Shown: one piece after another, positions 18,545-60,700 of the stretch
Layout: the number at the start of each line of letters is the position of its first letter
Position numbering within the stretch: position 1 is the stretch's first letter
DNA from: Heterotrichella gracilis
Taxonomy: Eukaryota; Sar; Xanthophyceae; Tribonematales; Xanthonemataceae
Reading direction: 5' to 3'
Assembly: GCA_032358255.1 (NCBI GenBank)
Contig: JAULBX010000115.1
Span: forward strand, 62,001 to 126,000
DNA length: 64,000 nucleotides
Notes under the pieces: model-generated
Databases searched by the model: none
What the model was told of the DNA's origin: nothing
What the model saw: only the letters and a program-made list of their open reading frames with translations
Position numbers and translations under genes: made by a program

Positions 18545-21500
18545 ATGGACAGTGAGTTTGCAGGACCTGTACCCGCGCCAAGACCGCGGCCATTCACCTT
18601 GGTTGGGTCACCTCCTGGTCCTCGGTGTGGCCATACCCTGACAGCAATCGCCGGGCCAGAAGGCGACCTCTCGATCGCAAAACTCGTACTATATGGTAGG
18701 ATTGTTGCTGCTGTCACTGATGAGGTAGCAAGGTGGGTGGGCACTGATTAACCTGGTTTCCTTTAGGTGGGGCAACAGCCTTGGAGGGATCAGCAAAAGG
18801 GGATGGTGGAGCACAGGCCTCACCGGGGTCCTCAAGCACAGGTGAGCCCCAGCAGGCTGTGGTTTGCTCAAACATGCAACAGGAATGCTGAACCGTTCTC
18901 TCTACACAAACAGCAGGTATACGGCTTGCGGGTGCAACTAGTGATGTACATCTGATGGATGTCCGAACTGGGAAGTGGGAGAAAATCACCCCTGCTGGTG
19001 AGCCACCGTCTCCAAGGGCAGCCCATGCAGCAGCAGCGGTTGGGAGCATGGTTGTTGTTCAGGTAAGCGCACACTGGCTCGGGTACCGCTTTCTGGGACC
19101 ACACGCCACTGCACCTAGCTCCCCACTAACATCCCCTTCTCCTACCCACCTTGTGCTTGCGTTGCAGGGAGGTATAGGCCCTGCTGGTCTCGCTTCTGAG
19201 GACTTGCACGTACTGGACTTTACAGACTTTGACCACCCTCGCTGGCATAGGTACGCCTGCGCGCATGTTGTTATATGGGGCACCAAGCCTTGTCCACCTT
19301 GTGGGTGATTGGGGTCGAGGTGGTTGGTGCAAGGACTGGTGCACTGAAGGGTGGCTGTGATGTTGCCGCAAGCGCGAAGGTCTGTACTTGTTGTTGGGGA
19401 GGTTGAAAACAGGCGCGTTTCTGTGCAGGGTTTCTGTCCAAGGTCCTGGGCCAAGTGCACGGTATGCCCACACCCTTGCACTGGTGGCCAACCGTTTTCT
19501 TGTGGCAATGGGGGGCAACGACGGGAAAAACACGTTGTCAGATGCCTGGGCGCTGGACACGTCTGAAAAACCCTACCAGTGGCGGAAAATAACAGACGCG
19601 GGCGATATGCCCTCCCCAAGGTAGGAACAAGGGGCCTTAATATAACCCACTCCGGCCCTTGTATAACAACGCTGTATAGGCTGTGCTAACAAGCTTCCTT
19701 TGTGTAGGATGTATGCCACGGCAGCTGCTCGGTCTGATGGCCTTCTGCTGTTGTGTGGTGGGCGAGATGCCACGGGGACACCGCTAGGTGACGCATATGG
19801 CCTTGCCAGGCATCGCGATGGGCGGTGGGAGTGGGCGGCGGCGCCTGGTATCATGCCAACAGCTAGGTACCAGCACGGGGCAGTGTTTGTGGGGGCCAGG
19901 CTGCACGTCACGGGGGGCGCAGTTGGGGGCGGGAAGATGGTGGACGACATCTCATCGTGCGTGGTGTTGGATACAGCGGCTGGTGTGTGGTGCTCTCAAG
20001 TGACGCCACCTGGCGCCAACCCTGCGGAGGACTACACCCGGAGGTGTAGGCATGCCGTGGCAGCGGTGGGGCCCTACGTGTTCATGTTTGGGGGCCTGCG
20101 GGGCAGCTTGCTGCTGGAGGACCTGCTGCTTGCGGATGACAGCAGTGGCACCGAGCTGTCCACGTGTGACCCGCGCTCACCTGCATGGTAGGTGCAGTGG
20201 CAATGTGCATGCCGCCCTGCTTAGTGGGCGCCATGGCAATGTGCATGCCACTCTAGGCATCATGGCAACGTTCAAGCACGTTCTCATCACCCATTAAGCA
20301 AGAATGATGCATTGCTGTGCCTGACCATGCCGTTAGCTTGAAGGTCGTCAACGCGTCGCTGGACGCTGTGCACTTGCCTCAGCAAGCCAGAAGGGCGCAC
20401 ACACATCTCACACCACAGCGGGCGCCTCAACCTGTGCGGCATTCCTTCCGGCCCTGACCGCTGATGTGCGTGTGCCCCAGGCGCACGTGGTTTGACGCTG
20501 CGCATGGCACCGAGCAAGGCGCGGCGCTGCTGGCGGAGGCCGCGGCAGAGGAGGCGGCTGCCGCCGCCGCCCTCGGGGTGCGGCGCGTGGGTGCGGTGGA
20601 GAACCTGCATGTGTTGGACCCCGAGCTCGACCCTGGGCACAGGCGAGGGGGCAGCCCAGGCAGCGTGGACCTGAGGCACCGCCAGGCGGGCAGCCCCACC
20701 ACGCCGGATGTCAGGCTGTACCACCGGGCGGTGGTGGTTGCGCAAGAAAGCACGGGGCCGCTGCGGGGGATGGTGCGGCAGCTGTCCCTGGACCAGTTTG
20801 AGAACGAGAGCAGACGAGTGAGCATGGGGACGGAGCTCAGTGCGCAGAAGTCGGCGGGCAAGACGCCCATGTTTGAGCGGCCCTCAGCAGACCCGGTAAG
20901 CGCCTGATCTGCACCTGTCCAGCTGCTGGATTGCATCATTTGCTGCAGGGTGGTTTCACTCCATGCACAAGATGTTGGCATGGATGTGTCGCACGTGTGC
21001 AAGCTGCGGCCAATGCCCTGTTGTGGGTGTTGAGCGCTTTGTGTTGCGCTGGCGTAAGCTGTGGTCATGCACAGCAGCTTGTCCTCATGTGGAGTAGCAG
21101 TTGGCACATGTTGGCGTGCATATGGTGCAAGCTGCAGTGCATTGCAGTAGCTGGGTTGCATGTGAAGCAAGCTGTGGCAGCAAGCGCTGGCGGGCGTTTG
21201 CAACCTGTCATTCAAGTGCAGTAGCAGGCGCGTATGGACGCGCATGTGGTGGTGTGCATGGCAAGCAAGCAGCTGCATCTCTGTGCTGCAGGGCACGCAC
21301 AAAGTGGTGCTGAGGGAACTGTTGAACCCCCGGCATTGGCGGCCGCCAGAGGACCGCAAGCTGTGCATCGACGTGGAGCAGATCGGCATGCTGTGCGAAT
21401 CGGTGGAGCGCATCTTCAAGGACGAGCCCACTGTGCTGCGGTTGAATGGTGGGTGACGCTTGCTGCCTTGTACCAGCTGGTTAGGGCTTAGGGTTTAGGG

Positions 21501-24500
21501 TTCCCACTGTGCTGCGGTTGAGTGGTGCGTGCAGCCTTGTACCATCTCCCACATGGCCCAGGGTTGTTAATGTGGCGTGCATGAAGCGGCCCCTTGTTCC
21601 GCTGCACAACTCCACCTTGTCTGCTGTGATGCACAACCACAGCACAGGGGTGGGGGGCACAGCCGCTCACCGCATGCAACCACTGTCGCTGGCACATCCT
21701 TTCCCGAATCGCAATGTGTGCCGCCATCCCATCAATACTCACCCTACCTGCCGGTGACCAGCCCCTGCTGTTCTACTCTGACCCCTCCTCAAGCTCTGTC
21801 AGTTGAAAGCGTCTTGCTGGCGACTTTTGCACTTGCATCATCCAGCCAGCACCATCCATGTGGCTGCCTTGTGCATTGTGGGCACCCAGTGCCATCATCC
21901 AGCAGCTAGCAAGTGCACTAGTGAGGGTTTTTCACCCCACCCCCTCCCACCCTGCAGCCCCCATCAAGATTTTCGGCGACCTGCACGGGCAGTACGGCGA
22001 CCTGATGCGCCTGTTCGAGGAGTATGGCACGCCCTCCACCGCGGGCGACATCACCTACATCGACTACCTGTTCCTGGGGGACTACGTGGACAGGGGCGCG
22101 CACAGCCTGGAGACCATCCTGCTGCTGTTTGCGCTCAAGGTGGAGCACCCGCACAACATCCACCTCATCAGGGGAAACCACGAGGTGCGGTGCAGAGGGG
22201 TTGGGAGTGGGGGGGGGGGATTAGGTTCTTATATGGGCACAGCATCCACACCAATTGGGGCAATCAGGAGGTGCGTTGCGAGGGGGACACAGGGGTGGTG
22301 CAGGGAGGTACTTGCTTCAAATCCGCACAGCATGCATTATTCAACACAACCACATGGTGCGCAGCTGGGTGGTGGCATATTGAGGGTGGGTTTGTTAGCA
22401 GCACACGAGGCTGTAAAGCTAGGCATAACCGGGTGCCATTTCTTGGATATTGTGCACCGTGGGTTGGTGATGGCACGGTGGTGGATATGTGAGTTTGGGG
22501 GGGAGGCCAAGTTTGGATGCATGCTGGCAGTGTGATATCGCCATTGATTGGGGTGTTCAATTCGCTTGTGTACTTTAGGAAATCGCCATGGCTGCATCGC
22601 CATACAGTTGCATGCATCATTAGGTGGGATGCATGTACTAATGGTGGGCACACGCCATGTCCTCCTCCCCGCCACAAGCTGCCTGAGCTTGATGCCACGG
22701 TCCATGGTCCACATTGCCTGCCGCTGTGCCATTTGCATGAGCTGATCAGACATGTGCTGTCAGGCCACCGACATCAACGAACTGACCACATGTACTGGTT
22801 ACTGATCAGTGATTACATTTACTGATAATGGATGAGACATGTGCCCTCCGATCACCAACATCAACGTACTGATTACTGATTACATGTACCATTGCATGTA
22901 CTGATGAAACATGTGCTCCCAGGCCACCGACATCAACGCGCTGTTTGGCTTCCGGCTGGAGTGCATAGAGAGGCTTGGCGACAACGGGCTGTGGGTGTGG
23001 AAGCGCATCAACGCGGTGTTCGACTGGCTGCCCCTGGCGGCGCTCATAGAGGACAAGGTGCTGTGCATGCATGGCGGTAAGCTACAACCTAAAACCCCAA
23101 ACCCTAAACCCTAAACAGTGACATAGCTTTACAGCGCTGTGTCTGGCGCTGCCAGGGGTGTTGGGATCACCTGCATGTGCACTGCCAACCACCACTCGCG
23201 CCGCCAGCGGCAATGTCACCACTCTTGGGAGGACAAGATTTTGGGTTGAATTTATCTCAGCATTGAAAGTGCTCACCTGCACTTCAAAGTGGGCAAGGTA
23301 AAATGACATAGCAGAGGAGAACTGCTTGGCGCCAGATATATTAATGTGGCCATACTGGTAAAGGGCATGTGTTTGCCTTACCCCCCCTGCTAATGCCGGT
23401 CGCGTCTGCAGGCATCGGGCGCTCCATCAACGCCATTGACCAGATCGAGGAGCTGCAGCGGCCGCTCACCATGGAGCTAGGTGGGGTGATCCTCATGGAC
23501 CTGCTGTGGTCGGACCCCACCACCAACGACGCGGTGGAGGGGGTGCAGCCCAGCCCGCGCGGGCCCGGCCTGGTCACCTTTGGGCCGGACAGGGTGAAAG
23601 AGTTCTGCAGGGTACGCTACGGATTATGGGGATTATGGGGCTCCTGTGGTTGGTGCCGTGCGGCACACATATAGCCATGAGGCTGTTGGTGGTTTGGCAT
23701 GCGCGCAGGCCTAGCACTACCCCCTGTGGTGATGCCAGCGGCCTTGAACTCATTCTGTCCAGCTGTCCAACATGTGCAATGGATTAAATTAAAAGTTTTT
23801 AAGTTAATTGAAGTCAAAATTAAAGGGTTTAAAACCAAGCACCGCTCACGCATGTATGTCTTGGTACTTTTTACCCAAGAAAAGGGAACGTTATAGCATG
23901 ACTAATTGCCCCCCTGGTGTCGCGTGCAGAACAACAACCTGCAGATGATCGTGCGCGCGCACGAGTGCGTGATGGACGGCTTCGAGCGCTTTGCGCAAGG
24001 CCACCTCATCACGCTGTTCTCGGCCACCAACTACTGCGGCACCGCCAACAACGCGGGCGCCATCCTGGTGCTGGGCAGGGACCTGGTCATGGTCCCCAAG
24101 CTCATCCACCCGCTGCCGCCAAACACCCCCCGCACGCCCAAGGGCTCGCCCGACTCCGACGACTACGAGGAGGAGCCGCCCACGCCGCACCCCAGCAACG
24201 TGGACACCTGGATGCAGGTGCGCGCGGTCAAACCCTAAATCTGAAACCCTGAAAAGTCTTTCTGACGCTATACCCTGAATCCAAGGATCGTGGACACATG
24301 GGCGCAGGGGCGCGTGGTGCTCTACGTAAACTTTAAACCTCACCCAAGCCCTGAATCATCACCCTAGGGTGCACGTGGACACGTGGATGCATGTGCGGGT
24401 GGTGCTGTGGCTGTGTGTGTAGCCCAGCTGCAGTGGGGAATGGGCTTGAGGCAATGCCGGCGGTGTGTGTTGCAGTGGTGGGGTAGGGGTGGCTGACAGG

Positions 24501-24714
24501 TGCAGGGAATGGGATTGGCAGCATGGGTCCAGTTGGGACGCTGCGATGAGGATTTAGGGTTGTCAGTGACAGTAGCCTGCGCCACCCTCTGCCCCCTTGC
24601 GCAGATACCTGACACCACATTTGTCACCGTGCGCAGGCTATCAACGAGGAGAGGCCGCCAACCCCTCCCCGGGCAAGGGCTGCAAACTCCTTCTTTGGGG
24701 ACCAGGGGAGCTGA
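18545..24714 (+). CDS. Kelch-repeat PPP-family protein phosphatase, BSU1-like (BSL/PPKL)
   Basis: Ser/Thr phosphatase with an N-terminal Kelch propeller, a type restricted to plants, green algae and some alveolates. In plants it acts in brassinosteroid signalling; algal substrates are unknown. Exons: 18545-18695, 18767-18841, 18917-19062, 19168-19250, 19429-19620, 19708-20187, 20481-20895, 21292-21448, 21958-22184, 22923-23076, 23412-23611, 23930-24217, 24637-24714; 881 residues, all phases agree. Kelch blades fill residues 1 to about 375 ([39 protein letters not shown]). A linker holds [17 protein letters not shown], a BSL hallmark. The phosphatase has GDLHGQ (573-578), GDYVDRG (607-613), GNHE (639-642) and [13 protein letters not shown]. 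The final exon restores the BSL tail [13 protein letters not shown]. The start is the first ATG of the conserved frame; an upstream exon is possible, so the N-terminus is uncertain. Introns 8, 9 and 12 and the 3' end of the 22185-22922 intron carry exon-edge copies. Confidence 0.93.
21427..21548 (+). repeat. Duplicated exon 8 end with TTTAGGG filler
   Basis: The exon 8 end and donor (from 21427, CCCACTGTGCTGCGGTTGAA, then GGTG) recurs at 21503-21548 with few changes. Downstream intron text (CCTTGTACCA) is shared too. Between them at about 21480-21500 is GGGCTTAGGGTTTAGGG, a telomere-like run. Confidence 0.9.
22169..22290 (+). repeat. Probable duplicated exon 9 end
   Basis: The exon 9 end and donor, with ACGAGGTGCGGTGCAGAGGG around 22180-22199, is echoed at about 22264-22286 by AGGAGGTGCGTTGCGAGGGG. 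The match is shorter than at the other sites and may be chance, but the position just inside the intron follows the same pattern. Confidence 0.5.
22741..22943 (+). repeat. Three copies of an intron end plus exon 10 start
   Basis: The true acceptor and exon start (22903-22943: ACATGTGCTCCCAG, then GCCACCGACATCAACGCGCTG) occurs again at 22741-22787 and 22831-22874. The first copy keeps a CAG acceptor followed by GCCACCGACATCAACGAACT, so it is a decoy splice site. Its reading frame soon meets a stop. Confidence 0.9.
23084..23117 (+). repeat. Interstitial telomere-like run in an intron
   Basis: CCCTAAA-type units (ACCCCAAACCCTAAACCCTA) begin 8 bases after the exon 10 donor of the Kelch-phosphatase. 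No exon-edge copy is obvious beside this one. Confidence 0.85.
24199..24406 (+). repeat. Three copies of the exon 12 end with CCCTAAA filler
   Basis: CGTGGACACCTGGATGCAGG (true exon end, 24199 onward) recurs at 24289-24321 and 24374-24406 with scattered changes. The spacers contain AAACCCTAAAT and related CCCT-rich text. The later two copies have lost a good GT donor. Confidence 0.9.
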
Positions 24715-28600: not shown

Positions 28601-29859
28601 AGGTCGCCGACCAGCGCAAGGTGGGCCACATCACCATCTGCGCACCCACCCCGGAGGAGGCGCGGCAGCGGCTGGCCGCCATCAGCCCCGCAGCGGCTGA
28701 GTCGCTAGAGCGCGCGGGTGATGCCACTGCTGCGGCGGGGCTGGGGCCTGCAGCGGTGGCGTCCACCTCTGGGCAGACCCACAATGGCGCAGGACAGGTG
28801 GGTGGCGGTGCAGAGCTGGTGCATGTGCATGTGTTTGGGGATTGACAAAAGCCTGAAAATGCTGCATGCAGACAATTTGGCGCATGAATTTTTTTGTCCC
28901 TGGCTATTAGGTAACCGTGCCATTGACTTTCCTCTTGTCTAATTTCCCATGCGGCTCGCCATCCAGCGCCGCTGTTGCATCATCAATTTCCAGCCCATCA
29001 CATCTTCCTCATTCCCCAAACCCTGCCTGGTTTGCCCAGCGCACCTCCATGTGTACCTGAACCATGTGCCTCTTTTCCCCCTTGTAGGTCGTCCAGGTTG
29101 GCATCATTATGGGCTCAGATTCTGACCTGGCGACCATGAAGGGTGCCGCCCAGGTGCTTCAGGAGTTTGGTGTGGGGTGCGAGGTGACCATTGTGTCGGC
29201 GCACCGCACGCCGGAGCGCATGATCGACTACGCGCGGGGGGCGCACAAGCGGGGCGTCAAGGTGAGGGGCAAGGGAGGGGTCATATTCGCCGTGTCTGAA
29301 CCTGGCAATGGATGGGTGGATCGATATGTGAGCCTCTCCTGGCACACTTAGGAGCAGCTTGCATTTCTCCTGATGTGTCAAACATTCTCCTTTGACATGA
29401 GCAACCCAGCACCATTGCCACAAGACTGGTGGCCACTTAGGCATATACATCCACATCCATGGTGCAGCGTGCGGGTTGTGCCACTGCATGTTGACACGCG
29501 TTCACCCGCTGCCCCCACAGGTGATCATCGCCGGTGCTGGCGGCGCCGCGCACCTCCCCGGCATGGTGGCCTCCCTCACCCCCCTGCCTGTGGTGGGCGT
29601 GCCGGTCAAGCCAGCCGGGGCGCACCTGGATGGGGTGGACGCCCTGCTGTCTATCGTGCAGATGCCAAAGGGCGTGCCTGTGGCGACTGTGGCGATCGGC
29701 AACGCGGCCAACGCAGGCCTGCTCGCGCTGCGCATCTTGGCCACCTCGGACCCTGCGCTGCTGCAGCAGATGTTGGAGTACCAGCAGGGCATGAAGGACA
29801 CCGTGCTGGCCAAGGCGGAGCGGCTGGAGCAGCAGGGGTGGAGTGAGTACCAGTTGTGA
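25680..29859 (+). CDS. Phosphoribosylaminoimidazole carboxylase, PurK-PurE fusion (ADE2 type), plastid-targeted
   Basis: Purine biosynthesis: the N-terminal ATP-grasp part (PurK) makes N5-CAIR from AIR, ATP and bicarbonate, and the C-terminal PurE part rearranges it to CAIR. Exons: 25680-25915, 26388-26466, 26728-26961, 27334-27766, 28049-28320, 28564-28797, 29088-29261, 29521-29859; 666 residues, all phases agree. Residues 1 to about 75 ([11 protein letters not shown], then Ala/Arg/Ser-rich) look like a chloroplast transit peptide and join in phase to the exon with [13 protein letters not shown]. PurK motifs: [28 protein letters not shown]. PurE motifs: [34 protein letters not shown] low-complexity Ala-rich linker of about 40 residues lies in exon 6 between the two enzymes. 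Plants and fungi share this fusion. The last coding bases are repeated downstream of the stop. Confidence 0.95.
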
Positions 29860-29976
29860 TCAGGTTGGGCAAAGCGAGCGGGGATACCTCAGAGACCTTT
29901 TGTCAGTGATTTGGTGCCCAGCAGAACGTCAAGCGGTGTTTTCACGCCGAGCAGCAGGGGTGGAGTGAGTACCAGC
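29826..29976 (+). repeat. Duplicate of the PurK-PurE last codons in the 3' region
   Basis: GAGCAGCAGGGGTGGAGTGA with the following GTACCAG (about 29826-29853, just before the stop) is repeated without change at about 29949-29976. The copy is followed by CTATGA instead of TTGTGA. The 95 bases between are not obviously telomere-like. Confidence 0.9.
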
Positions 29977-30810
29977 TATGATTGGATTTGGCCCAGGTGG
30001 AGATACTATCTTGGACACATCGGATGTGTCACACAGGGTCAGTGTCCAGCTGCATCGAGGGCTAATTTTGCAGCAAGTCGTGACAACGATGTGTTCAAAG
30101 TTGACTCAACGGCAGCCAGTACTGTTCCAGGACAGCTTGATCTTTCAAATGATTTCCCCTCGCTGTCCTCGTCACGGACAGGCTTTTTGCTGTTGACAAT
30201 GTGAGCTGTCCGTCGTGTCGCACATTTTGTGACAGGGCACTTGGAGAGCCAGTCTCATTTTACAGGAATTTTCCAGTGTTTGAACACACTTCATCATATT
30301 GTTCGTTCCTTATCACCACTGACAGTGTCTGGGATGTCAAATCTGGGACATCTGTGCAGTAGGCTGGCTGGTCTAAACAGCCTTTTCGGTGGGGTGTTTT
30401 TATAAGAGTAGCCATCCACGTATCCCACCTGCTTTTCAGCAGCTGTCCCAACTCCCAGAGATTTCCCCCTAACTCCTCCCTTTTTGCACCCTGTTGCGTC
30501 ACACAGCACACTTTGGAACACAAGCAAGCGTGAGACAAATTGGTTGCCGGGCAATGCGCTTATAAACATCTGTGCAAACATCACAGGAAGCCCTGCTAGT
30601 CTTTTGTGCCCACCTATGTATCTACCTACTTGTTGATGATTTCAACTTTGAAACTACCTACCATCATGTAGTTCTAAAGGTTTCTAGGGTCAATGCAGCC
30701 TTGAACGCCTGCAACCAACAATACAATTGTACTTTCATCTGCTCAACCATGGCGGCCCCCATCCATGCTCCCTGGGCAACCGCCACTTGCTGTGGGCTCT
30801 CCACCAGCTC
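29860..30810. other. Intergenic between convergent genes
   Basis: The plus-strand purine gene and the minus-strand unknown gene converge here, so it should hold two 3' untranslated regions. Apart from the copied purine gene end at about 29949-29976, I see nothing supportable. Confidence 0.5.
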
Positions 30811-32430: not shown

Positions 32431-35400
32431 ATGGAAACAAAGGCCGCAGTTCATCGCCTGGTACTGGGACCTTCAAGCAGGTGTTGCCTGACCGCAAAGC
32501 CGTTCAAAGCGCATACATGCCCCAGCACCTCCCGGCGTGGTAGACTTCCTTGCAGTCGAACCAGGAGGTCCTCTATACTCAATGGCACACCGAAGCAGAG
32601 AGACAATCCAGAGACAAGTGAGTACAGGTGTAGAGAGCACGCTGTATGACCAGCTTGCACAGATCCCATGCACTGTGCCACACCCAGTCCTCAGCAACAC
32701 CCACGCCCCTTGGCACAGCAGGTTGTGAGTCCAAAATCCATCCCATTTTAATCTTTGCACCCGTGATATAACTTCTCATCCCTGAACATGCGCTGCACCG
32801 CCCCTCTCCACATCCCTGAGCGCACACATCCTTGGCTCCCCTCTAGGTACCCCCACTGACCCAGATGAGCGATACAAGCTGCGGCAAATGGAGGACGAGC
32901 TCCGGGACCCTAAAAATTTCCTTGAGTGCGTGCCACCACCCGATGTACCAACTACCGTTTTCCACGCCTTTCCCTTCTTGCTGTCACAATTTTACAGTGA
33001 GGCGCTACTCAAACGCCCACTTGCGCCATGGGCAGGTCACTTGCCACCTGTCACAGGAACGGGCACATGGGCAGCTGCCTTGGCAGTGAAGCTTGGCCGA
33101 TGTGTGGCATAATCTGTCCTGCCAACGTACGCATCACTGTTGTGGCGACAGATCAATTTGCACCCATGGCATTGCACTGCACCTACGCCTCGGGGTAGTC
33201 CCTCTTTGCGTAAATGAACATGGCAACCTTACAATAGAATGGTCCTGGGAGACTATCTGCCTGCAATATGTGACAGGTAGCATTTTCTTCGGCCGCAGGT
33301 ATTTCTTGCCCCGGCCCCTGCGCCTGCTCTTCTTTGCTGGTTCAGGCGTCTCCTGCCTCATCGCCTCGCTGCTCGCCGCCTCACAACTGATTGCGGTACG
33401 GGTCACTTACATCAACCATTATTTATTCCTTATTTTCTCATGTTACTACACCATTCAAATTACTGTACATGCCAGATGCTTGAACTTGCACCAAAACCCA
33501 CCATGCACGCCGCCACACACAGGGCAAAGCACCCAAGAGCAGTATGCAAGGTCGACGCCACACTTGAAAATGCAATGAACACAGTCATTTGGCATGGAGA
33601 TGCAGGCTTCGCTCAGTCATCCGCAACAGCATGTGCATGCCACGCACCCACAACAACAAAATCAGTTCGTCAAAGGTACAAGTGCAACGAATGTTTCCGC
33701 CCGCATCATTATGGCCTTCATTATCAAATCCAGGAAAATATTCGTTGATTATCTAAATCGCAAAATATTTAATTTGCAAATTAATTCTGAATTTCCTGCA
33801 TTAAAATCCGCCACTGTATGTGCAGAGCCCCTCCCTTGCCCTGGCCACCGGCGAGGCTGTGCAGACCCTGGTGGTGGACCTGGTGGGGCTGGCAACCTTT
33901 GCGTGCCTGTATGTGGTGGACAGTCGCGCGGCACAGGAGCGGGTGGAGAAGCGCTCACAGGTGGGTTTAGGGTTTTAGGGTTGTTGCGTGGCTGTGTGGC
34001 GCAGGAGCCGGTGCAGGAGCGCCTACAAGTGGGGGCAAGGTGTAATGTGAGGGTTTTGCGGTGTAAGTTTGGAGAAGAGGAGTGTAGGGTTTGGGGATTC
34101 GGTGTGGCACAGGTGGTTCGGGGGTTTGGAGTAGGGTCCCGGTAGGGTTCGGAGTATCACTATAGGTGCTTGGGCTTAAGGGATTGGTACAGCCGTTGAA
34201 AATGTAAGGGCATGTTTACCGTACAGTCAACGAGAGTAAGGGGTGTGAACTGTGTGGATTTCACAATACGCAGTGAAACAGTGCGCTACAGGGTTGCATC
34301 AGCCAGCAACTCTCCATTTTGGTTTGACCTTCACTTCACTTTTGCTGGCGCCCACAGATTCGGCAGGCGCAGATCAAGTTCGGTGATCGCGAGGTGTACT
34401 TCAACAGCGAGGGGGAGAAGATGAGCAAGTTGAAAGAGGTGGACACACAATGGATCCTGCGGCGGCTGGAGCGGTGGGGCAAGCGGGATGGCATGCTGTT
34501 CATCGGGCCCAAGAAGGGGGTGCTGCTGCAGGGGCTGATCAAGGTGGGTGGGGTGCAGCTAACAGACAACTTTTGAGGTCATCGTGTGCAATGATTGTTG
34601 CAGCCCGCTCCTGTGGTGTAGAGTGCAGATGTGGGCTGCAACAATCATAGTTGAGGCATCGTTTCAATGCCATAGGATTCCACGAGCCTCAGAGATACCG
34701 GATACTGGATGAATCAGCAGAATGGATCAAGCTTCTTGTAAAACAAACTTCACTTGTCCTGTTTCAGGAGTGCCAGCCCGGTGTGGTGGTTGAGGTCGGC
34801 ACCCTGTGCGGCTACTCGGCGCTGCTCATCGCCCAGGCGCTGCCACCTGGCGCCCGCCTCACCACCATCGAGTCTGACTGGAAGTGGGTGCTGGTGGCCA
34901 TGCGTTTCCTGTGGCAGGCAAGTAGGTGCAGGGTCTAGGGTTTAGGGTGTGGGAAATAGGGTTTTGCGGTGCTGGTGGCCATGCGCTTCCTGTGGCAGGC
35001 ATGTGGATCTAGGGTTTTGGGTGTGGTGTTTAGGGTGTTGTGGTGCTGGTGGCCATGCGCTTCCTGTGGCAGGCAAGTGGGCCCTGATGTAGCATGGAAA
35101 AATGCTTGCATTCTTCTGAACCTAGTGGTTTTCGTGTATTCCATGGTGCAGATGGTGGTGTTTGGTGGTAGGGATGAGGGGTGAGAGCAAGGGGTGGATG
35201 CATGGGGTGGTGTGGGCACATCTTTCATGTACAAATTCCTGGCGCATGTGCACAGTCCTAGGCCACATGCATAATCCCAGGTCGTGTTCACAATCCCAGC
35301 CCATTTGTACCCATTCCCTGGGCCATTTCCCCCAAATCCCTGGGTCATGGACCATCCGCACAGTTACAGCCCATGTGCACCAATCGCAGGCCAGCCAGGG

Positions 35401-50092: not shown

Positions 50093-53000
50093 TCAGCTCA
50101 CATGGAGCCCTCCTAGGCTCAACCCACTGCCCAGCGGTCCAGTGGCATACCCATCCTGCCGCCCCATGCCTACCACCCCATTGGCCATGTCTGCATTAAA
50201 CCCCCTGCTTGACCCCCCCTGGACCCCCGGCTGCTGGCGGGGCATGTGCGCATCCTGCTGGCCCCCCTCAAATGTGACCTTGGTGAGCAAATCTGTGGGC
50301 AGGGCTTCCAGCGTGGACAGGGCCTGTCTCAGCGCCTTGACTGCCTGCGGGTGGGAGTGCAGGGTTTAGGGTTAGGGTTGAGCATGGCCAGGGCCTGCCT
50401 CAGCGTTTTGAGTGGGAGTGTAGGTTTTAGATATTAGGGTTTAGCGTGGCCAAGGCCTGCCTCAGCGAATTGGCTGCGCCTGCAGGTAAGGGTGGCAGGG
50501 CCTGCATTGAAATGCCAAATGCTACAGAAAGAATAGCGTAAACTTGCTAAAACAGGCAGGGCCTGCCTCGCCCATCAGTCCCCCCACCACCCCCCACCCC
50601 ACCCACCCACCCACCCCTCCCTACCTGCGTGCATGCCTGCCTCTTTGCCGCCACATCCTCCCTCTCCCTGGTGAGTGCCTCAAACAGCTCCTCCCGGTAC
50701 AGGCAGCTGATCAGGTGCGGCTGGAGACCGCGCTGCACGTGGTTGACCAGAAAGTGCATGATGGCCTTGGGGACGGCGTCCTGCGTGGGGAAGGAGTGGG
50801 GCGGCGGGTGGTTTGGATGGGGGTTTAGGAGGCAGTGTGACAGGCGCAAGTTGTGCAAGGATAGATGCTGACCTGCTCAAACTGTTGGAGCGGGCCAAAA
50901 AACAACATGCGTTTCAGCAGTGTTAAAACCAAATAGATCATCGAGGTACATCACAGGACATGGGCATTTCACTAAGGGCCCATGGGCGCTCATCAAGGGT
51001 GTCACATCCTCACCTGCAGGGAGCGCCGCACTAGGTCAAAGTATGACGCCACCAGCAGGCGTGTGACCGCTACCTGAACCGCCTCCTGCTCTGTAGGGTC
51101 GGAGGGGACCTGAAAGGATAGGATTCAGGATTTATGGGGTGCTTCCATGCGATGCAGCAAATGGTCGGATGGTGAGGCAGAACCATAAGAATCCAAGTAG
51201 CGCACAATGGGGTAGGGAGATCACCTTCCCCCTGCAATCCAGCTCCAACTATCTTGTAAGCTTTCTGACAGGTATAGTGGCGCACAGGTCCAAGCGTGCA
51301 AACCACCCAACACCCCCGTCACAATCACCACCATACCCGTAGGATGGGCGGCGGCTGCGCCAGCGACGCCGGCGCCCCCTCCCTCCGCCCGCCAAACCAC
51401 CCCGCAAACCAGCCCCCTTCGGTGCGGTCCACATCCCCAGTGCTGGCCGAGTGGTGCATGGCTGCATGGTGTCGCACACCCATCAGTTCCTCTGGGCTCC
51501 ACACCTCAGGTTCCACTCCCTTGAGTCCGGGCTTGGAGGGGTGGGCGGGGGTGGGGGGCATGGGGAGGCGGGGGCGGGCGCCGTTGGCGGATGGGCTGGA
51601 GGGGGGCAGGTGGCCTGGGGCGCAGGGGAGGGAAAGGGGTGACGAGGAACGGTGTATAGAGAGAAGTGAGGGATTGGCTGTGCTGCTGTCTTGAGGTTGA
51701 TGACCATCAAGCCTGTTGTTTGGTCTAATAAGGGGCACCAGATCATCCTTCCGCTGTGAGATACAGCATAGTGCATCCACTACACACCTGATGCTCTCTA
51801 TAACAATGGTTGCGCACAATGCACTAACACCCCCAAACAGGAGCTCATGGTAAACTGGTTGCTGGTCCGGACCAAACAAATACCACCCTTGCCCTAACAA
51901 CACAAAACCAACCACAGGCCATTTGGCCCCCCAGAAAAACCCAGGGCCAAATCTGCCGATGCAGCAGCCTACCTGCAGACTTGACTGGGGTGCGCTGGTG
52001 GCCCTCCCGCCTCCTTTCCCTCCCCTTGTCCTCGTCGCTCTCCTCCCCCTCCTCCGCCTCCTCCGCCACCCCCCTTGCCTGCAGCACCTGCGCCACCGCG
52101 GCGCTGCCCCCCACAAACGCAGGGTGGTCTGTGTTTATGTAGGCGTGCTCACATGACACCAGGTTGCGGATCATAGTTTCGGCTGGCCCTGCGCCCTGGG
52201 CGATGAACTCCTGCACAGTGGCCGCCATGTGCGACTGCGAGGGCCACAAACTTAATTCAATTGATGAATGAATGGCAATTATTAATCGTTGGATTGGGTT
52301 GTTAGAGCTAGTGATCCAGTAAAGTAAGGGTACAGTTTCTAGACATGCAGCTTGGGCACCCCGAAGCGCACGCCACCCTCAGGGTATGCACGGGTTGGAA
52401 GGGTATAGAAGGGTTTTGGAAGCGCACGCCACCTCCGCGTATGCACTGGAAGACTTTTGAAATAGCTGCTCAGCACATGAAGTGTTTCAGAATGCACTAG
52501 AGCACCACACCCACCTGCAGCGTCAGAATATCCTGCGGCATGCACTGACCAGCAATGCGCGGCAATGAACTGCGTTTCAATGGTTCAGTAGTTTTCTTTT
52601 TCAAAGTACGCACCTGCAGTGCGGGGAAGCGCGCCACATCCTGCGGGATGCACTGGCTGGCGATGCGCAGCAGCTCGCCGTGCACAAACTCCTTGCACTG
52701 CAGCGCGGGCGCCAGCAGGCGGGCGATGGCGCGTCGCACCAGCAGCTCAAAGGGAATTTCCGGGATGAGCAGGCTGCCGCGCACGCCCCCGCAGTTCTTG
52801 ATGGCAGTGCGGATGTCGTCATCGGTGAGCTCGCTGGGAGGTGGGTCCAGGGAGGGGTGGCGTTAGGCGGGGATGGGGCAGGGTTGTGGTGGGGGTTATT
52901 GCTGATGATGAGGGGTTTGGCAAGGTGCTGCTGGGATGGTGTGAGGTGGCGGGCAACGGGGTACACAGCGCTTGTGTAACTGTCACATATCTCTTTTTGA

Positions 53001-56000
53001 AAAGGCAGTAATATGCTACACCGCCTTTCACCCCCTCTCATACTGAAATGACAAAACAATGTAACCAATAACCCGCGCATCAGTTGCAAGCTCACCACTG
53101 GCCAGCACCTAGGCACGGCACAGCACACACCTGGCGGGGTTAAGCGAGTTGAGCCCCCTGTCAAAGATCTCTAGAAAAATGTGTCGGATCCTGGCACCCC
53201 CCGCCAGCTCAGAGATGGGCAGGTACTCGCTGCGCCCATCCAGCATCTGGTCATAGCGCCGCGCATAGGCGTCTAGAAGCTGCAGCAGCAGGGCGCCCCT
53301 GCAGAAGGGTTTTTGTTTAGGGTTTGGGGTTTCAGGGTGCAGCTCAGCATGGCAATGGTGCAGTAATCCAATTGAACACAGGTATTAGAACACAGGCAAG
53401 CTTAACCTGTCTGGCTCCTTGAATGCACAGGATGGCAGAATATCGTGCTGGAGAAATTCGCCCCGCAGTCCAGAAATGAAGCCACACCAGTGGTCACGGG
53501 GGCCCTCAACACCTGGTATTTTTAAATGTACTGCCCATGCAGCTATCCACAATTTACCGAGTAAACAGGTGAGACTTTCTTATTTGTTTTTGTGCTGGTA
53601 TGGAGTGACACTCTGTGCACCTCCTTCCCACCTTGCAGCCGGCGTGTCCCCTGGCGGCGCCTGGCCATACACCTTGAGCTCCACCTGGCGCTCCTCCAGT
53701 GCCTGCTCACATGCACGCCGAAGGTTGGGAAGCCCTGCAGTGCGCCATGAAAGTTCAAGTGAATACGAACTGGATGATGTTTGTATAATTAAACACTGTG
53801 AGTACTATTCCCCCCGGAGGAGCCTGCGTACATGCAATCCACCAGGATTATTCAAGGGGAATGTAACAACTGAACAAATTCACATAATACCCTTGCCCCC
53901 ATCCAGAGCTCATTGCCCAAACCCTGTACCCCTTTCCTTGCAGACAGCCTTGGCTAAGTGTACATGGGAGCTGTTGATATCAAATAATCACTACTCACAA
54001 GAAATCGATGTGTCGCACCTGCGCGTATGTGGTCCACCAGGATAGCGTTCAGGCTGCGCGCCAGCTGGCGCATGCCGCAGCGCCCCACGCAGTCGCTGTA
54101 TTCCGGGTGCGATGCAAAGAATGCGCGCTCATTGTCCCTTGCGGCATCCATGGGCAGGGCGCGGCTGATGTCTGCTTGGCTGCGCAGCACCACGCCTGCA
54201 GAAAAGGGCCCAATTATTATTGTCATTCCTGTTTGCTTTAATTTTTTACACAGTGGTGGTATGCATGCTGTACATGGATGACGTTGATGACACGCACAGG
54301 CATGGCAGCAGCTATGCCCAAACCAGCAGAGTGGAAGGCAAATGAAGGATGCAGGATGTTTCTCGACATGACACTGGGCTTTGTAGTCAGTGAAGAGGTT
54401 TGGCAGCCTACCTACATACCCTAGCCGCATTGGCACGTGTAGGGTTCAGGTGTAGAGTTTAGGATTTGCCGCCCTACCTGTGTGCCCTAGCCGCAGTGGC
54501 ACATTTAGGGTTTAGGGTTTGTCGCCCTACCTATATACCCTAGCCGCAGCGGCACCACCTCGTTCCGCAGCACAGCCGCGGCATCAGTCCCTCGGTCCAT
54601 GATGTCAAGCTTGGTGAGCACCCCTGGGGGGGCAAGGGGGGGGATGTCAAGTCAGCGACAGGAAGGGGTACGGGGAAGGTGTGCAACGCACGCCGGCGCT
54701 GCACTTATGCCGCTGTCAGACAGCCTAGCTCACAGCTGTGTATACTGCATTTCTGTTGTGCTTGCAAGGAGAAACAAAGCAGGCTAGTTGGTTAAACAAC
54801 TCAACACCGTTCCCTTTGGACCTCCAAAAACAGAAAGCAGTTTTTATTACTTTGTATAAAGCCTGACAGATCACCTAACCATTCCCAGTTCACCCTTCAC
54901 TACTATGGTAATCCCCGGACTGCCATTGAGCTCGTTTGCTACGCATGCAAATCCCCCCCACACACCAGTGCTATCCCCAGGACGTGCCATTAAGGGTGGG
55001 TTGTCAGCCCCCCCTCCCCAACCCCACCAACCCCACTCCCACACCCACACACGCACCAATGGTCCTGAACCCTTCGGGGTCCACGCTGCCCGCCAGCTCC
55101 AGCGCATCCGAGTTGACCAGGTCGATGTTGGCGGGCGTGACCGCCAGGATAAGGCAGGTGGGAAGCTTTATGTACTCAAGGATCATGGAGCGGATGCGCT
55201 GCTCAATGTCGCCAGGCTGGTCACCCACAGGCACGCGCGCGATGCCTGGCAGGTCGACGAGCGTCATCGTGCTGCAAGGAAGGGGAGGGAGGGTTGGGGG
55301 GAGTGGCAATGGAAGAGGGGAGGGAAGGGGGTTGTGCGGTCCTGTGCCATGTGGTGCATGGGAAGGGTGTGGAGGGGATTACTGTGGCCCGGTGGCGAGG
55401 TTCCATTGGAGGGTGCATGGCGGGTGGGTGGGTACGTGCCGACACACAGTAAGTATGTGCATTCCAGCTTTGAAGCCAGATTAGCATGCCTCTGCATTCC
55501 AGCTCAAGATCTAAAGCTTGACTGACACTGTTTTGTCTCTCACACAGGCATGGCCACACAGCCCCATGATTCAAGCTGGGAAGTCCACCTGCAGGATGCC
55601 CCCCCATTGGCACCTGCCTATGCGCCATGTTGTGCCTCGTGCCAAAGAAGCATTTGTGTTGTTGTTGCACATGGTAACTCTGTTGCACGCAGCAGGCGCA
55701 AGACAAAATATGTATGGTGGGGTCTCCAGACATTTAGCTGGGTTGCAAGTGATCCAATGATGGCAACGCACAGTACTGTGGGGCTGCATATCTTGAGGCG
55801 GATGGGCTTGTCTGACACCCCCTTGTTCCTGCCAGTCACCCTGTCGGTCTCAGACTGGATCTCGGAGCGAATGCGCTCAAAATCATAGAAGCGCTTGCCT
55901 GCAGCGGGAGGGTGTGCAAACCCTTCAGTAGGGTTCTTACACAGGGGTGGCTCGTCCCACTAGGGTGTTGGTCAGAGGTGGCTTGCCCTGCATGATGCCT

Positions 56001-57223
56001 ACTGCATCTGCGGGTGGGTGTTTTGAGGCAGAAGGGTGTTTCCAAATATACAAGCATTCCTTCAAGGGTATTCAAAGTGTCGCACCCACGGTTGGCAATG
56101 CAGAGTCACTACCATATGAACCCAGGACGTACCATTCCTGAATAAGCTATACTGCCTATGATTGGGTTTTCATAGGGTTTTGCTACCTGGTAGGTGCAGG
56201 AACTCCCCCCATTCCGCGCCAGACGCTGCACTTGAGCCAGACGGCACTTGCACCTGTGGGGTGGGGAGGACAAGTGCTCAGCAGCGCAACACCTGCCAGG
56301 CATGCTTGGGACGATGCTGAGCGGCGCAAAGTGGGTGTCCAGATGCTCACTCAATCACAGGGCTGCAGGGCAGTGAAATACACTGCGGGCTGAGTTCAGC
56401 CAAATTCAAGCCCTAGTACACTACGGCGGGACATGGGGCAAGTTGGTGTCCTGCCTCAGGCCCCTGCGAGCCTTACCAGCTGAAGTATGAGCGGTCGCCT
56501 GGTGCATATGCTGGGGCCACGTGGCAGGAAGTCACGGCCAACCTGCGTGCACCACCACCCGTAGGGTTTTACTGGCAGGCTTAGGGTTTGGATGGGTGAA
56601 GTCAGTGCGATGTCACCCACATGCGGAGCACCCACAGCACATGTGAACCCAAAATCGTTGCCTGCCATACGCCACGGTCCCTGCTGTGGAGGGTTCAAGC
56701 CAAACTGGTGCAGGGGCCAGTGCCTGCCGTCATGGTGTTCACTAGTTTTGCCTGAAACGCACCAGTGCCTCCAGCACACTCGACTTGCCACTGCTCTGGC
56801 TGCCAACCACTGCTACCTGAGGCAGATCGAGCTTGAAGTCGAGTGTCACCTGCAGGCGTGGAATAGACGGCCAGCATATTAGCTCTCGTCACCAAACGCA
56901 CCATATGCATGCACATGCATGCATATCCAATGACTCATGGGTCCACGGACTCTATAGTCGTGCGTCGTGCAGTGGTTCAGTGTATTGAAACTGTTTTTGA
57001 AGATGGCATATTGACACGTCGATAGGTGGCTTGCGGTTGCCGTACAGAAAGCCTAGGAACTGGGTTGTACGGCACTGCTTTCGACACTTCGGTAGTGCTG
57101 CCAACACTCCTAGGGTACACAATGCGTTCAAGCAAGAGCAGTGCATTTTCATACCTGACTGAATATATCTTGCAGCTTATTGATAGCCGGAATTATGGTT
57201 TCGCCAAGGTTTTCTTGTGCCAT
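50093..57223 (-). CDS. Dynamin-related GTPase (Vps1/Dnm1/DRP3-like, no PH domain)
   Basis: Membrane-fission GTPase, 811 residues, 16 exons (minus): 57223-57155, 56849-56763, 56542-56477, 56253-56187, 55898-55772, 55271-55057, 54623-54531, 54195-54019, 53734-53632, 53298-53131, 52833-52614, 52234-51973, 51614-51337, 51109-51014, 50780-50625, 50344-50093; all phases agree. Exon 1 gives the classic start [20 protein letters not shown]. GTPase motifs: GSQSSGKS (39-46), [11 protein letters not shown] with the switch Thr, DLPG (145-148), TKLD (214-217). The middle domain has [32 protein letters not shown] and [13 protein letters not shown]. An acidic, Lys/Arg-rich insert and a His/Ser/Gly/Trp-rich linker (residues about 590-645) replace a PH domain. 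The GED is about 648-760 ([32 protein letters not shown]). The likely role is mitochondrial or peroxisomal division or vesicle scission. Introns carry several exon-edge copies. Confidence 0.95.
50310..50486 (-). repeat. Three copies of the last dynamin exon's acceptor edge, TTTAGGG filler
   Basis: The true edge (about 50310-50355) is followed on plus by copies at 50380-50423 and 50443-50486, sharing GGCC(A)GGGCCTG(C)CTCAGCG. Spacers contain GGGTTTAGGGTTAGGGTTGA and ATATTAGGGTTTAG. In the gene's own direction the copies lie in the last intron just before the exon, and the far copy keeps a CTGCAG acceptor. Confidence 0.9.
52359..52655 (-). repeat. Repeated copies of dynamin exon 11 end
   Basis: The true exon end with donor (plus 52612-52665: CACCTGCAG, CATCCTGCGGGATGCACTGG, CGATGCGC) recurs at 52512-52567 (CACCTGCAG, ATCCTGCGGCATGCACTG, CAATGCGCGGCA). 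Two further partial copies of the GAAGCGC(A)CGCCAC, TGCAC core lie at about 52364-52393 and 52420-52450. Spacers have degenerate GGGTT motifs. Confidence 0.8.
53308..53336. repeat. Telomere-like run next to dynamin exon 10 acceptor
   Basis: GTTTAGGGTTTGGGGTTTCA lies about 10-30 bases upstream (in gene direction) of the exon 10 start at 53298. A similar run, GCTTAGGGTTTGG, sits about 40 bases upstream of exon 3 (about 56579-56591). Confidence 0.8.
54403..54556 (-). repeat. Three copies of dynamin exon 7 end with TTTAGGG filler
   Basis: Plus-strand copies at 54403-54436, 54470-54502 and 54522-54556 (the true exon edge) share CCTACCT, TACCCTAGCCGCA and TGGCAC or CGGCAC. Spacers contain TGTAGGGTTCAGGTGTAGAG and TTTAGGGTTTAGGGTTTG. 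In gene direction the two copies follow the true donor, and both keep a GTAGG donor-like sequence. Confidence 0.92.
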
Positions 57224-57730
57224 GGTTATCACTTTCTTTGCTCCTGTAGAGTTGGGCAGCCAACCCAAAACGGCTCAACTCACGCTCGACAAACAATAGA
57301 CGGTATCCATACTGATCAACTTGTCACGGCGCGCTCCTGTCCTCCTCCAGGAAGGTTGCTTCAACTGTGAAAGTATGTATATTATTGGGCACCCAGCATG
57401 CGCTTCGTGAAGTGACAGCCTGGTCGTTTGTACCCCTCATAGACCGCTGTAAACTTGAAGACAACAACTACCTAAGTGCTCAAGTGGTCAGCTATTAGGA
57501 AGTGTCGGTACTCGACCACTCAAACTTTGACTCAAAGCGCGGGAAATATTTTCAGGGTTTTCGAGGCTCGAGCGGAACGACTATATATGGTGCTACTGGC
57601 AGTGCCAGGCAGGCTCTATTCACAGTAGCAAATTCTATGATCCCCTTGGCACAACCCATTGCAACCTCCTTGCCAACCTGCTTTGTTTCCAACTGGGCAA
57701 CTCTCCAGCCATTGCCTTGGTTGGGCGCTG
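57224..57730. promoter_or_regulatory. Divergent promoter between dynamin and pseudouridine glycosidase
   Basis: 507 bases separate the two start codons, so both promoters and 5' untranslated regions must lie here. A TATA-like ACTATATATGG is at about 57579-57589. No other element is clear. Confidence 0.4.
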
Positions 57731-60700
57731 ATGGCTGTAAGTAGCGCAGCCCTGAAGGCTGCTGCACTACAACTCCCATACCACCCACGGCTGTTATCCC
57801 ACCTAACCAGCGCTGCACCCTTTTATTCACACCCAAGCCTGAGCTTGCCCACCAGACCAGCCCACCACAATGTATCAAGACAGCACAGGATGGCGCCAGC
57901 TGCGTCCCACCCAAGCGCACCCTCAGCTGCTGCAGCACAGATGGTACTTGTGCGCAGCTTGCTGGTAGTTGTTGGCCACTCTGCACTATACTCTTGCCAC
58001 ATCATGGTTCAGGCCTATCCTGTCATGCCATACGCATGCACCAAGGCATACTCAGCCCACCACCACCTTCTTTGCCAAGATGTTTCACTTGAGCACCTTA
58101 CAAGCATCACGCGCGTTTGACCCGCTTTCAAGCACCTAACCGCTTGCCTGCCGTGCAGCATCCCCTACTCAACATCCACCCCGAGGTGTTCCATGCCCTC
58201 CAAAACAACCTCCCCGTTGTAGCCCTAGAAAGCACCATCATCAGCCACGGGATGCCCTACCCACAGAATCTCCAAACAGCCAACGAGGTGGAGGCAGTCG
58301 TGCGCGCAAACGGCGCCATCCCCGCCACCATCGCCCTGCTGGACGGGAAACCCTGCATAGGGTTGTCGCCAGAGCAGGTGGAGGTGATTGCCAAGACTGG
58401 GCTGGGGGTGCGCAAGACCTCCCGGCGGGACCTTGCGTATGTGGTGGCCAAGGGGGTCCATGGGGCAACAACAGTGTCAGCCACAATGTATCTGGCGTCG
58501 CTGGCGGGGATCAAGGTGTTTGTGACTGGAGGTGCGGGTGGTGGTGCGGGTGGTGGGGTGGGTGGTGGGGTGGGTGAATGTCATGGGAGGTGTAGGTGGG
58601 GTTTGGGTGGGTGGTGGCAGTTGCCTCGCCAGGTGGGTGGGCGCCACACGCACCGGGTACCCATGCGCCACCCCTCCTACCTAAATGTACAATGCTATCA
58701 CCGCCAGCCTAGCACATGCAGATCATAGTTTAATAATCCTTGTTCACCAGCAACACACCCCACTCGCACCGCAGTCTGCACGCGCATCACTTTGGCAGGG
58801 ATTTCCTTTCCCATGCCACATCACCCACCCGCCCATACACCACGCTGCGCAGGCATTGGCGGGGTGCACCGGGGCGGGGAGGTCACCATGGACATTTCAG
58901 CCGACCTCACTGAGCTGGGGCGCACCCCGCTGTGCGTCATCTGTGCGGGCGCCAAGACAGTTCTGTAAGTGTGCATGCCTGGCGTGTCGCTTCCTAGGCC
59001 CTTTACTGGATACACTGTGGGTAATTGGGTCAGGATGTTTGTGATCATGTTAATGGCTTTCAGTGGTTGATCCTGTAAGATCTTGCCATACTTGCGTTTT
59101 AGTGCGTTGGGTATAATGAAGTATATGCAACAACTGTATGTAGTCACGCTGGCCAGGTGACGACTCTAGCCTTGACCGTGGCTTTAAGTGCATCTCCCCA
59201 GCCAAAAAGCAATGAATCGACAAAGAGTAAAAATTCATGCAGAGACATCCCGCGCACACTGGAGTACCTGGAAACGCAGGGCGTGTGCGTGGCGGCGTAT
59301 GGGGCGGATGATTTTCCCGCATTCTTCACGCCGCGCAGCGGGTGCAGGTGAGGGGGACGTGGTAGCCTAGGGTGCAGGGGTGGTTTGGCCTGTCCTTGAT
59401 GGCCAATGGGTAATATAAGGCTGGGGTTGGAATGGAGATGGGAGGGGAATGGGTGGAGATGTAATTGTAACTGTCAATGTCAATGTGAGTGTCATTGTTT
59501 TTATTTTTGTCCACTATAATGTAACTGTAATAATAATCACTGGCTGTTGTGTGCTGCAGTGCCCCCTGTCGGCTAGACACTCCTGAGGAGGTGGCGGCGG
59601 TGGTGGCGGCGGGGCATGCGCTCAATCTGCAATCGGGGATGGTACTAGGTGCGTGGTGCATTGAATTGCATTCACTTCACTCCTGCTGAGACACATAATC
59701 AATCACATGTAAAGCTTCCACCGCCGCTTTAATGGCTTGGGCCATATTATTAGCGTAAGCCATATTATTTCAGGTCAGTGGTGTAAATGGTAGAAGGTTG
59801 GCATTACTTTAATTTATAAAGATGGCTGTGACATTCTATTGCATTCTATTGATTGAAAACATTTGATGTTTGCTGTTGCATGCCGCTTTGCCTAAGCAGG
59901 GGACATTTGAAGCTTTGCCATGCAAATGATGCTAGCTTTGGTGCCTGGTGCAAGCATGCGGCCCCTCAACTTCGTCCTTGTGCATTTCCTTTGCTTCTTC
60001 CTTTCTAGGGTCGGGCGCTGCTCGGAAAAAAAACATAAAGGGGCATGGCATTTTCATGGCCACTGGTTGGTTGCACCTGCATGCATGGAAAATACCTTTG
60101 TCAGTGCACAGCGGCCCGCCATTGCCCACGCGTTCAACGGCCCATGAGCCGCCGCATATACCTCCAGAAATGAATTCATTTGACTGTGTGTTCATCTCAA
60201 ACAAAATGCAATACTAAAAGAACGCCGGGCCGTGACTTGACATGTGTGGTGTGTGGGCGCAGGGGTGCCCATACCCTCTGAGTATGCCGCAGAGGGCGCC
60301 ATGATTGAAGGCGCCATTCAGCAGTCACTCCGGGAGGCAGATGAGCAGGGCATCATTGGTGAGGGTGTAGGGTTTTGGAGTACGGTGTAGGGTTTAGAGG
60401 TTTAGGTTTGGCAGGTCCCTCTGGGAGGCAGATGAGCAGGGGCGTCATTGGCGAGGCAAAACCTCCAGGCAGTGTGTAAGTGGGTGGCCCATGTGCATTG
60501 GCGCATATCTGTCACATGGGCACAATACTTGCATGGGTGGGGCCCATAGCCCTAGCCAACGGGCAGCTGGTGAATGCCTTGGAAGCTGCATGCTACTCTT
60601 TAAACCATGCATGATGGTGGTGTGCATGATGGTGGTGTGCAGCGTGCAGGGTTCAGGGTTTGGGGTTTTTGGAATGCATGGTGTTGCTGTGAGCACGCAT

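Follow-up and report, generated by a model that had tools for sequence, protein, structure and literature searches.

Copies of coding-exon edges with often telomere-like filler in the introns of the xanthophycean Heterotrichella gracilis

In a stretch of 64,000 nucleotides (nt) of the Heterotrichella gracilis genome (assembly GCA_032358255.1, contig JAULBX010000115.1, here C4; the whole stretch is called the window), the edges of coding exons are repeatedly copied, splice site included, into the adjoining intron, and the filler between the copies is often telomere-like (TTTAGGG or CCCTAAA). This copying of exon edges, first described in an earlier note on the window, is confirmed here and is general across the genome. 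On balance, we regard it as probable that the copies are recurrent repair scars, left where coding exons, or the DNA next to them, suffered staggered breaks that were filled in and joined via DNA that is often telomere-like. The window corresponds to positions 62001–126000 of C4, within a genome of 68.5 Mb and 903 contigs; the contiguous sequence analysed, to which the counts below refer unless stated otherwise, amounts to 306 kb (C4 up to 156 kb, window included, and 150 kb of a second contig, C46). Exon edges are those predicted by a coding and splice model self-trained on these 306 kb from the sequence only, which yielded 412 introns (median 309 nt), exons with a median of 167 nt, and the consensus CAG/GT(G/A)nG for donors and TGCAG/G for acceptors.

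Frequency of edge copies

Filtered direct repeats with a spacing of 15–400 nt and a score of at least 18 numbered 124 pairs, as against two when the partner was shifted by 3000 nt; a chance origin of the copies is thus excluded. Here, as in the edge and cluster counts, low-complexity or largely telomeric repeats had been removed. When each exon edge was aligned with the adjoining 300 intron bases, as the earlier note had proposed, 36 of 666 splice edges were found copied into their own intron, compared with 0 of 666 when the same edges were matched against another intron. Donor and acceptor sides were both affected, as had been claimed, with copies at 19 donors and 17 acceptors of 333 introns (null, 0 and 0); these 333 were retained from 410 after dropping introns below 150 or above 1500 nt, those near a sequence end and those with a flanking exon shorter than 30 nt. 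Outside the window, 27 of 550 edges were copied (13 donors and 14 acceptors of 275 introns). Control points in intron interiors gave 51 matches from 1097 points searched in two directions, located in 20 introns; 17 of them lay in nine introns devoid of an edge match, and matches of this latter kind numbered 16 over 901 points outside the window. Gene models are often fused and their starts poor, which makes the remaining counts rough: 3 of 30 predicted stop codons had a copy (scores 54, 41 and 34 against a threshold of 32, hence one near threshold), and none of 30 poorly predicted starts did.

Bias towards coding edges

The earlier note had proposed a systematic bias to exon boundaries. To measure it, copies at least 12 nt apart were grouped with their neighbours into clusters, and expectations were obtained by rotating the annotation 500 or 1000 times. 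Of 68 clusters with filler between the copies, 42 lay at a coding edge, 24 elsewhere and two in coding sequence only, whereas rotation placed a mean of 18.5 at edges (standard deviation 3.3, maximum 28 in 500). Pairs in which one copy spans an exon–intron junction, its partner lying inside the intron, were similarly in excess (27 against 10.1, maximum 24 in 500), while those wholly inside introns were close to expectation (60 against 53.9). In the tests by filler type and identity, C4 9902 and C46 84110 count among those lying elsewhere and were kept there; the gene finder had called the copy at C4 9902 an exon, which is probably also why C46 84110 falls into this class. Clusters with telomere-like filler were at edges in 17 of 20 cases (5.5 expected), and those lacking it in 25 of 48 (12.9 expected), values reached by none of 1000 rotations in either class. 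The proposed bias is accordingly systematic; it is one towards coding edges, stop codons included, and not specific to splice sites. Telomere-like sequence, for its part, is frequent in the filler (20 of 68 clusters) yet not necessary, since the other 48 clusters are edge-biased too.

Such a distribution could also arise if insertion were even along the genome, scars in exons being purged and pairs deep in introns, with both copies free to change, decaying twice as fast. The rarity of coding-only clusters (2 of 68) indicates that purging is likely to be real, and the 24 of 68 clusters off predicted edges also count in favour of this view. However, young pairs, those with an identity of 91% or more, show an equally strong bias: 14 of 21 lie at edges against 3.9 expected (maximum 10, thus 0 of 1000 rotations). 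Young cases include C4 9902–10054, C4 127276, C46 127636 and C46 132995. Moreover, as described below, telomere-like tracts are densest at 10–50 nt from coding edges, being 4–6 times rarer at 50–400 nt and some 13 times rarer past 400 nt, and constraint on an exon should not shield a neighbouring filler tract. We therefore consider even insertion followed by unequal loss an unlikely explanation.

Edge copies in the window

Direct repeats with filler occur at the places to which the earlier note had pointed, and eleven edge copies were counted in the window, including the case near 3340 that this note had mentioned. Seven have telomere-like filler (21427, 24191, 33930, 34887, 50310, 54397 and 60321), and four do not (3338, 22725, 29827 and 52530). 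The scoring rule of the edge-copy test was passed by nine window edges, namely eight of the eleven and a weaker donor at 22184; those at 33930, 52530 and 54397 were accepted from the sequences and pair lists. Window positions are used in the following list, which ends with two sites outside the count.

Acceptor edge 3338–3395, minus strand: copies at 3436–3492 and 3589–3699 (span 3338–3699); filler not telomere-like.
Donor edge 21427–21455, exon end 21448, plus strand: copy at 21503–21531; filler with TTAGGG/TTTAGGG; predicted exon end backed by homology.
Acceptor edge 22885–22938, exon start 22923, plus strand: upstream copies at 22725–22779 and 22831–22872; filler not telomere-like; predicted edge backed by homology.
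Donor edge 24191–24228, exon end 24217, plus strand: copies at 24281–24318 and 24373–24403; CCCTAAA-like filler; predicted edge backed by homology.
Donor edge 29827–29860, plus strand: copy at 29949–29982; filler not telomere-like.
Donor edge 33930–33965, plus strand: copy at 33998–34033; filler GTTTAGGGTTTTAGGG-like; recognized by eye, not a match in the edge-copy test.
GC-type donor edge 34887–34926, plus strand, present in three copies: from 34968 and at 35042–35081 (span 34887–35081); TTTAGGG-like filler; a 74-nt unit is additionally repeated in tandem.
Acceptor edge 50310–50343, minus strand: copies at 50381–50414 and about 50443–50476; telomere-like filler, C-strand in the sense of the gene.
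Donor edge copy, minus strand: 52530–52564 and 52638–52672; AT-rich filler; recognized by eye, part of it called an exon by the gene finder.
Donor edge 54516–54555, minus strand: copies at 54397–54436 and about 54463–54502; filler CCCTAAA-like in the sense of the gene.
Donor edge 60321–60364, plus strand: copy at 60411–60456; TAGGG-rich filler of 46 nt.
Weak candidate at donor 22184, plus strand: span 22151–22279, possible copy at about 22237–22279 (33 of 43 positions identical); left out of the eleven, its alignment changing with masking to another, weaker one.
Donor followed immediately by a CCCTAAA-rich tract, 23077–23118, plus strand: seen in the sequence; no copy detected in the edge-copy test.

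Three of the predicted edges (21448, 22923 and 24217) belong to a phosphatase gene at 21292–24672 and are backed by homology, because the exons of this gene, once spliced, align over their entire length with the BSU1 phosphatase (PDB 9tp7, E 2.8e-137) with the intronic copies excluded. Similarly, a kinase gene at C4 8158–12173 aligns with 3uc4 once one of two identical predicted stretches, read as a copy, is dropped. At the GC-type donor at window position 34918, GCAAGT is kept in one intronic copy and the other reads GCATGT. For one window gene, the closest relative among candidate proteins, which were limited by length, came from the green alga Helicosporidium (82% identical). Minisatellites with 21-nt units, a multiple of three, occur at window positions 62364–62510 and 9860–9995.

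Telomere-like tracts

Words of the TTTAGGG type head the list of over-represented 7-mers in a sequence sample, and a pattern of three TTTAGGG units occurs at 834 places genome-wide, overlapping matches counted and a few at contig ends included; the reversed control occurs at none. Several TTTAGGG repeats near the end of one contig (G000:C46:403873–403907 of 404050) possibly mark a true chromosome end. Tracts of at least 9 nt are concentrated in introns, with 130 in 182.6 kb, compared with four in 87 kb of exons and six in the remaining 36.4 kb. Counting them by distance from the coding edge, as the earlier note had suggested, gave no tract closer than 10 nt, a density per 10 kb of 20.4 at 10–25 nt and of 20.3 at 25–50 nt, then 4.7 (50–100 nt), 5.1 (100–200 nt), 3.6 (200–400 nt) and 1.6 beyond 400 nt. 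Neither copies nor TTTAGGG runs are thus equally common away from exon edges. Telomere coverage peaks 10–40 nt past donors. Genome-wide, the donor CAGGTGAG is followed by CCCTAAACCC within 30 nt at 123 places and at 100–130 nt at 30 places, some of them in arrays; the control motif CAGCTGAG gave 12. The G-strand version follows the donor at 180 places, a count lacking a distance control.

Within 50 nt of donors, C-strand and G-strand tracts number 20 and 19 in the 306 kb. The claim that filler occurs in both telomere orientations is supported. Genome-wide, G-strand tracts are the more frequent after donors (180 against 123) and the less frequent before acceptors (TTGCAGG; 121 against 220), a contrast with p = 1.5e-9 whose counts are inflated by array copies and overlapping matches. 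G-strand tracts contain AG, and their relative scarcity before acceptors is as expected if splicing filters inserts.

Tracts accompany copies, above all at donors, where 14 of 19 with a copy have a tract as opposed to 47 of 314 without (odds ratio 15.9, p = 7e-8); at acceptors the figures are 5 of 17 and 30 of 316 (p = 0.023). Among 20 donor-plus-CCCTAAA places fetched from the genome, taken as the first 20 distinct ones of the pattern list with one already covered place skipped, eight had an edge copy by rule and one in the null; two loci (L043 and L045) look by eye like additional cases, outside these eight. Six G-strand places were picked by hand, one of them (C12) already visible as an array: one (L058) had a copy by a slightly laxer rule and another (L060) by eye.

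In the flanks of the tracts, 8-mers enriched beyond the telomere unit occur, telomere variants aside, at five or fewer of 140 tracts. A shared insert family, as introner-type or other transposons would leave, was considered because CTTGCATTA seemed common to two fillers; it appears unlikely, the other four of its six places having no telomere context.

Anatomy of the copies

Among 129 pairs whose copies are separated by 10 nt or more, 52 are spaced by 70–109 nt, the commonest bin being 90–99 nt (23 pairs). A second group of 24 pairs lies at 150–199 nt, and only two pairs exceed 400 nt in a search extending to 1500 nt. In pairs spaced by less than 140 nt, the duplicated stretch measures 16–64 nt before gapped extension and the filler 14–107 nt, with a middle value of about 50 nt. 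On the exon side, donor duplications reach 15–46 nt; on the intron side, their reach is 3–16 nt in 16 of the 17 rows listed, in which two edges are entered twice. Acceptor duplications show a broad range of intron ends, their mean having been taken with 3 of 17 rows omitted.

The uniform donor ends may hint at targeting coupled to splicing or transcription, with the break falling a few nucleotides past the donor, owing to the end of an R-loop, to stalled machinery or to GTGAGGG/TTTAGGG microhomology that primes telomerase. The peak of telomere coverage just past donors would suit this. It would not suit the acceptors, whose frequency of copies is close to that of donors (17 against 19 of 333) and whose intron ends are broad, nor the stop-codon edges (3 of 30), nor the near equality of C-strand and G-strand tracts at donors. 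Such targeting is, in our judgement, decidedly unlikely.

Fillers match the telomere unit with a mean of 0.68 (range 0.39–0.88, n = 31), whereas 0.91 would be expected had they been born pure and mutated like the copies, and 0.55 if shuffled; the mean is lowered by cases with a single CCCTA or TAGGG that do no better than shuffled sequence (for example C4 116397, C46 127636 and C46 142222), and a single array (C46 69825–70217) contributes several of the rows. Indeed, identical copies still flank impure filler at C4 9902 (0.83) and L052 (0.76). The filler was therefore probably impure from the start, or derived from impure tracts. An 85-nt AT-rich filler between acceptor copies at C4 24234–24318 (L011:4234–4318) is unique in the genome; capture of filler from elsewhere in the genome was accordingly discarded, this single filler tested having no second genomic place. 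Error-prone synthesis in one event, under which the farthest copy should always match the exon best, was likewise set aside, with about five cases for and four against by eye.

Arrays of two to several units occur, some with matches 106 nt apart. Exact matches of splice edge and telomere tract recur at this spacing at G000:C179:65587–66037, C75:44795–44923 and C75:85700–85827, which, going by the matched letters alone, may reflect a preferred size of the unit or membership in one gene family. At C46 139650–142700 (L032 and L033), edge-like copies also form dense arrays that extend over several introns and past one predicted stop. Alternatively to joint insertion and duplication, the tract might come first, a telomeric insert beside an exon forming a fragile tract that later provokes tandem duplication by slippage or unequal exchange. 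This would agree with the 47 of 61 tract-bearing donors at which no copy is detectable, with the 27-nt tract-plus-acceptor matches repeated every 106 nt at C179 65587–66037 (again from matched letters), and with L045, a duplication without filler. It is difficult to reconcile with the edge bias of non-telomeric clusters (25 of 48) and with C4 9902, where two copies identical over 56 nt flank a 41-nt filler that has no counterpart past the second copy. We hold this order of events to be quite improbable.

Splice sites and intron growth

Of 32 copies that cover the splice dinucleotide, 27 have preserved it (donors, 15 of 18; acceptors, 12 of 14), a further four not covering it; this is the neutral rate for 91% identity. 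The suggestion of the earlier note that the process seeds alternative splice sites is therefore unsupported as stated and describes a potential only. For the same reason it is highly improbable that the telomere-like motifs or copied splice sites have been retained for aiding or regulating splicing. The concentration of tracts 10–50 nt from coding edges might be read in that sense, and the impurity of the fillers and the presence of both tract orientations at donors speak against it.

That the copies enlarge existing introns, as the note had also held, follows directly from 52 of 129 pairs being spaced by 70–109 nt. Intron gain by duplication gave no convincing case among 410 introns, of which the 22 best rows were viewed: repeats across both intron ends scored at least 34 in five introns (null, none), none of them in register. 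One predicted intron, at C4 34159–34435 (L012), has an in-register 15-nt repeat at both ends, as an intron that arose by duplication should have; its score of 25 is within the null range (14 observed against 5 null at 24 or above).

Proposed origin

The layout of edge, filler and edge fits a staggered break that was filled in and joined through inserted DNA, as the earlier note had surmised. In the sequence of events that we favour, two staggered nicks some 20–60 nt apart would produce a double-strand break whose ends fall within coding exons or close beside them. Fill-in at both ends would duplicate the overhang, and the ends would be joined via newly added DNA, impure and often telomere-like, with a length of some tens of nucleotides and typically near 50. 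A scar inside an exon would usually be lethal, while one across a donor, an acceptor or a stop codon would leave one copy to keep the gene intact and assign the other to the intron or flank. Edges would in this manner accumulate scars and introns would grow, commonly by 70–109 nt per event, some units being multiplied in tandem afterwards. The coding-edge bias would follow if breaks occur in exons or right next to them and scars lying inside exons disappear. Candidate enzymes would be telomerase and, for the fill-in, the CST/Pol alpha machinery. CST and telomerase are telomere factors, and their involvement might connect both halves of the layout. Directly observed are the layout, the edge bias and its persistence in young pairs, the enrichment in telomere-like sequence and the impurity of the filler; the staggered breaks, the enzymes and the targeting of exons followed by selection are inferred.

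Several observations weigh against this interpretation. The ends of donor duplications are tighter than it predicts, since breaks spread over exon and flank should give wider ones; the mean reach into the intron is 8.4 nt (one 74-nt row excluded), as opposed to 19 nt if ends were evenly placed. This tight end is not fully explained, and no other observation argues as well for an involvement of splicing or transcription. Most tract-bearing donors have no detectable copy, 48 of 68 clusters are without telomere-like filler and 24 of 68 are off predicted edges. Telomere polarity within the fillers, looked for because a telomerase-extended overhang might give it, was not significant (p = 0.17, n = 18). 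Finally, no empty site was seen, the one region tested having no allelic contig.

A stronger version may be put forward only tentatively, and we rather doubt it: coding-exon edges might be true hot spots of repair linked to the telomere machinery, which would then be a main, still active engine of intron growth and would make roughly the initial 50 bases of many introns layered scars. Little is known about how introns lengthen, or about any connection of breaks or their repair with exon boundaries. In this one genome, scars that can be dated seem to number in the hundreds and their bias in position can be measured, so that comparison of strains could separate their insertion, selection and decay. 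The finding would link telomere maintenance with gene structure.

Comparison with known systems

The outcomes described here are known in parts from other repair systems, and neither the edge bias nor telomere-like filler at exon edges was met in the open-licence literature searched, as far as its accessible portions go. In plants, telo boxes resemble the present tracts as short telomere motifs scattered through genes. According to the portions of that study consulted, they are enriched in the 5′ untranslated regions of Arabidopsis and rice and slightly below expectation in introns (PMC3022908), whereas the tracts described here are intronic and near coding edges. In Daphnia, introns are reported to be gained via tandem genomic duplication or double-strand break repair (review, PMC3443670, in part). 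As here, short direct repeats flank repair-inserted DNA linked to introns; the new introns of Daphnia, however, arise inside exons, while in H. gracilis existing ones grow at their ends.

Closer in composition are the telomeric inserts found at double-strand breaks in mammals, some of which come with a target-site duplication or extra sequence (PMC2246262). They share with the present scars telomere-type DNA at a break, sometimes with duplication of the target. Such duplications are a minority among them (6 of 130 rodent and 4 of 25 primate loci in Table 1), and the relevant parts of that report mention no exon-edge preference, in contrast to the short, impure and edge-concentrated fillers described here.

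Closer in form are small tandem duplications attributed to fill-in. These have been explained by CST-guided Pol alpha–primase acting at complementary 3′ overhangs, with CST being required (PMC8355091), and have been tied to two adjacent nicks in mouse embryonic stem cells (PMC5730883). In rice, insertions likewise comprise duplications, whether tandem or partial, as well as inserts derived from neighbouring DNA (Vaughn and Bennetzen 2014, as cited in PMC5730883 and PMC7407515). Neither telomere-like filler nor an exon-edge bias is reported in the sections of these sources that describe the duplications. What they have in common with the scars in H. gracilis is the duplicated overhang: the direct duplication of tens of nucleotides around the joint, by which fill-in is recognized, measures 16–64 nt here.

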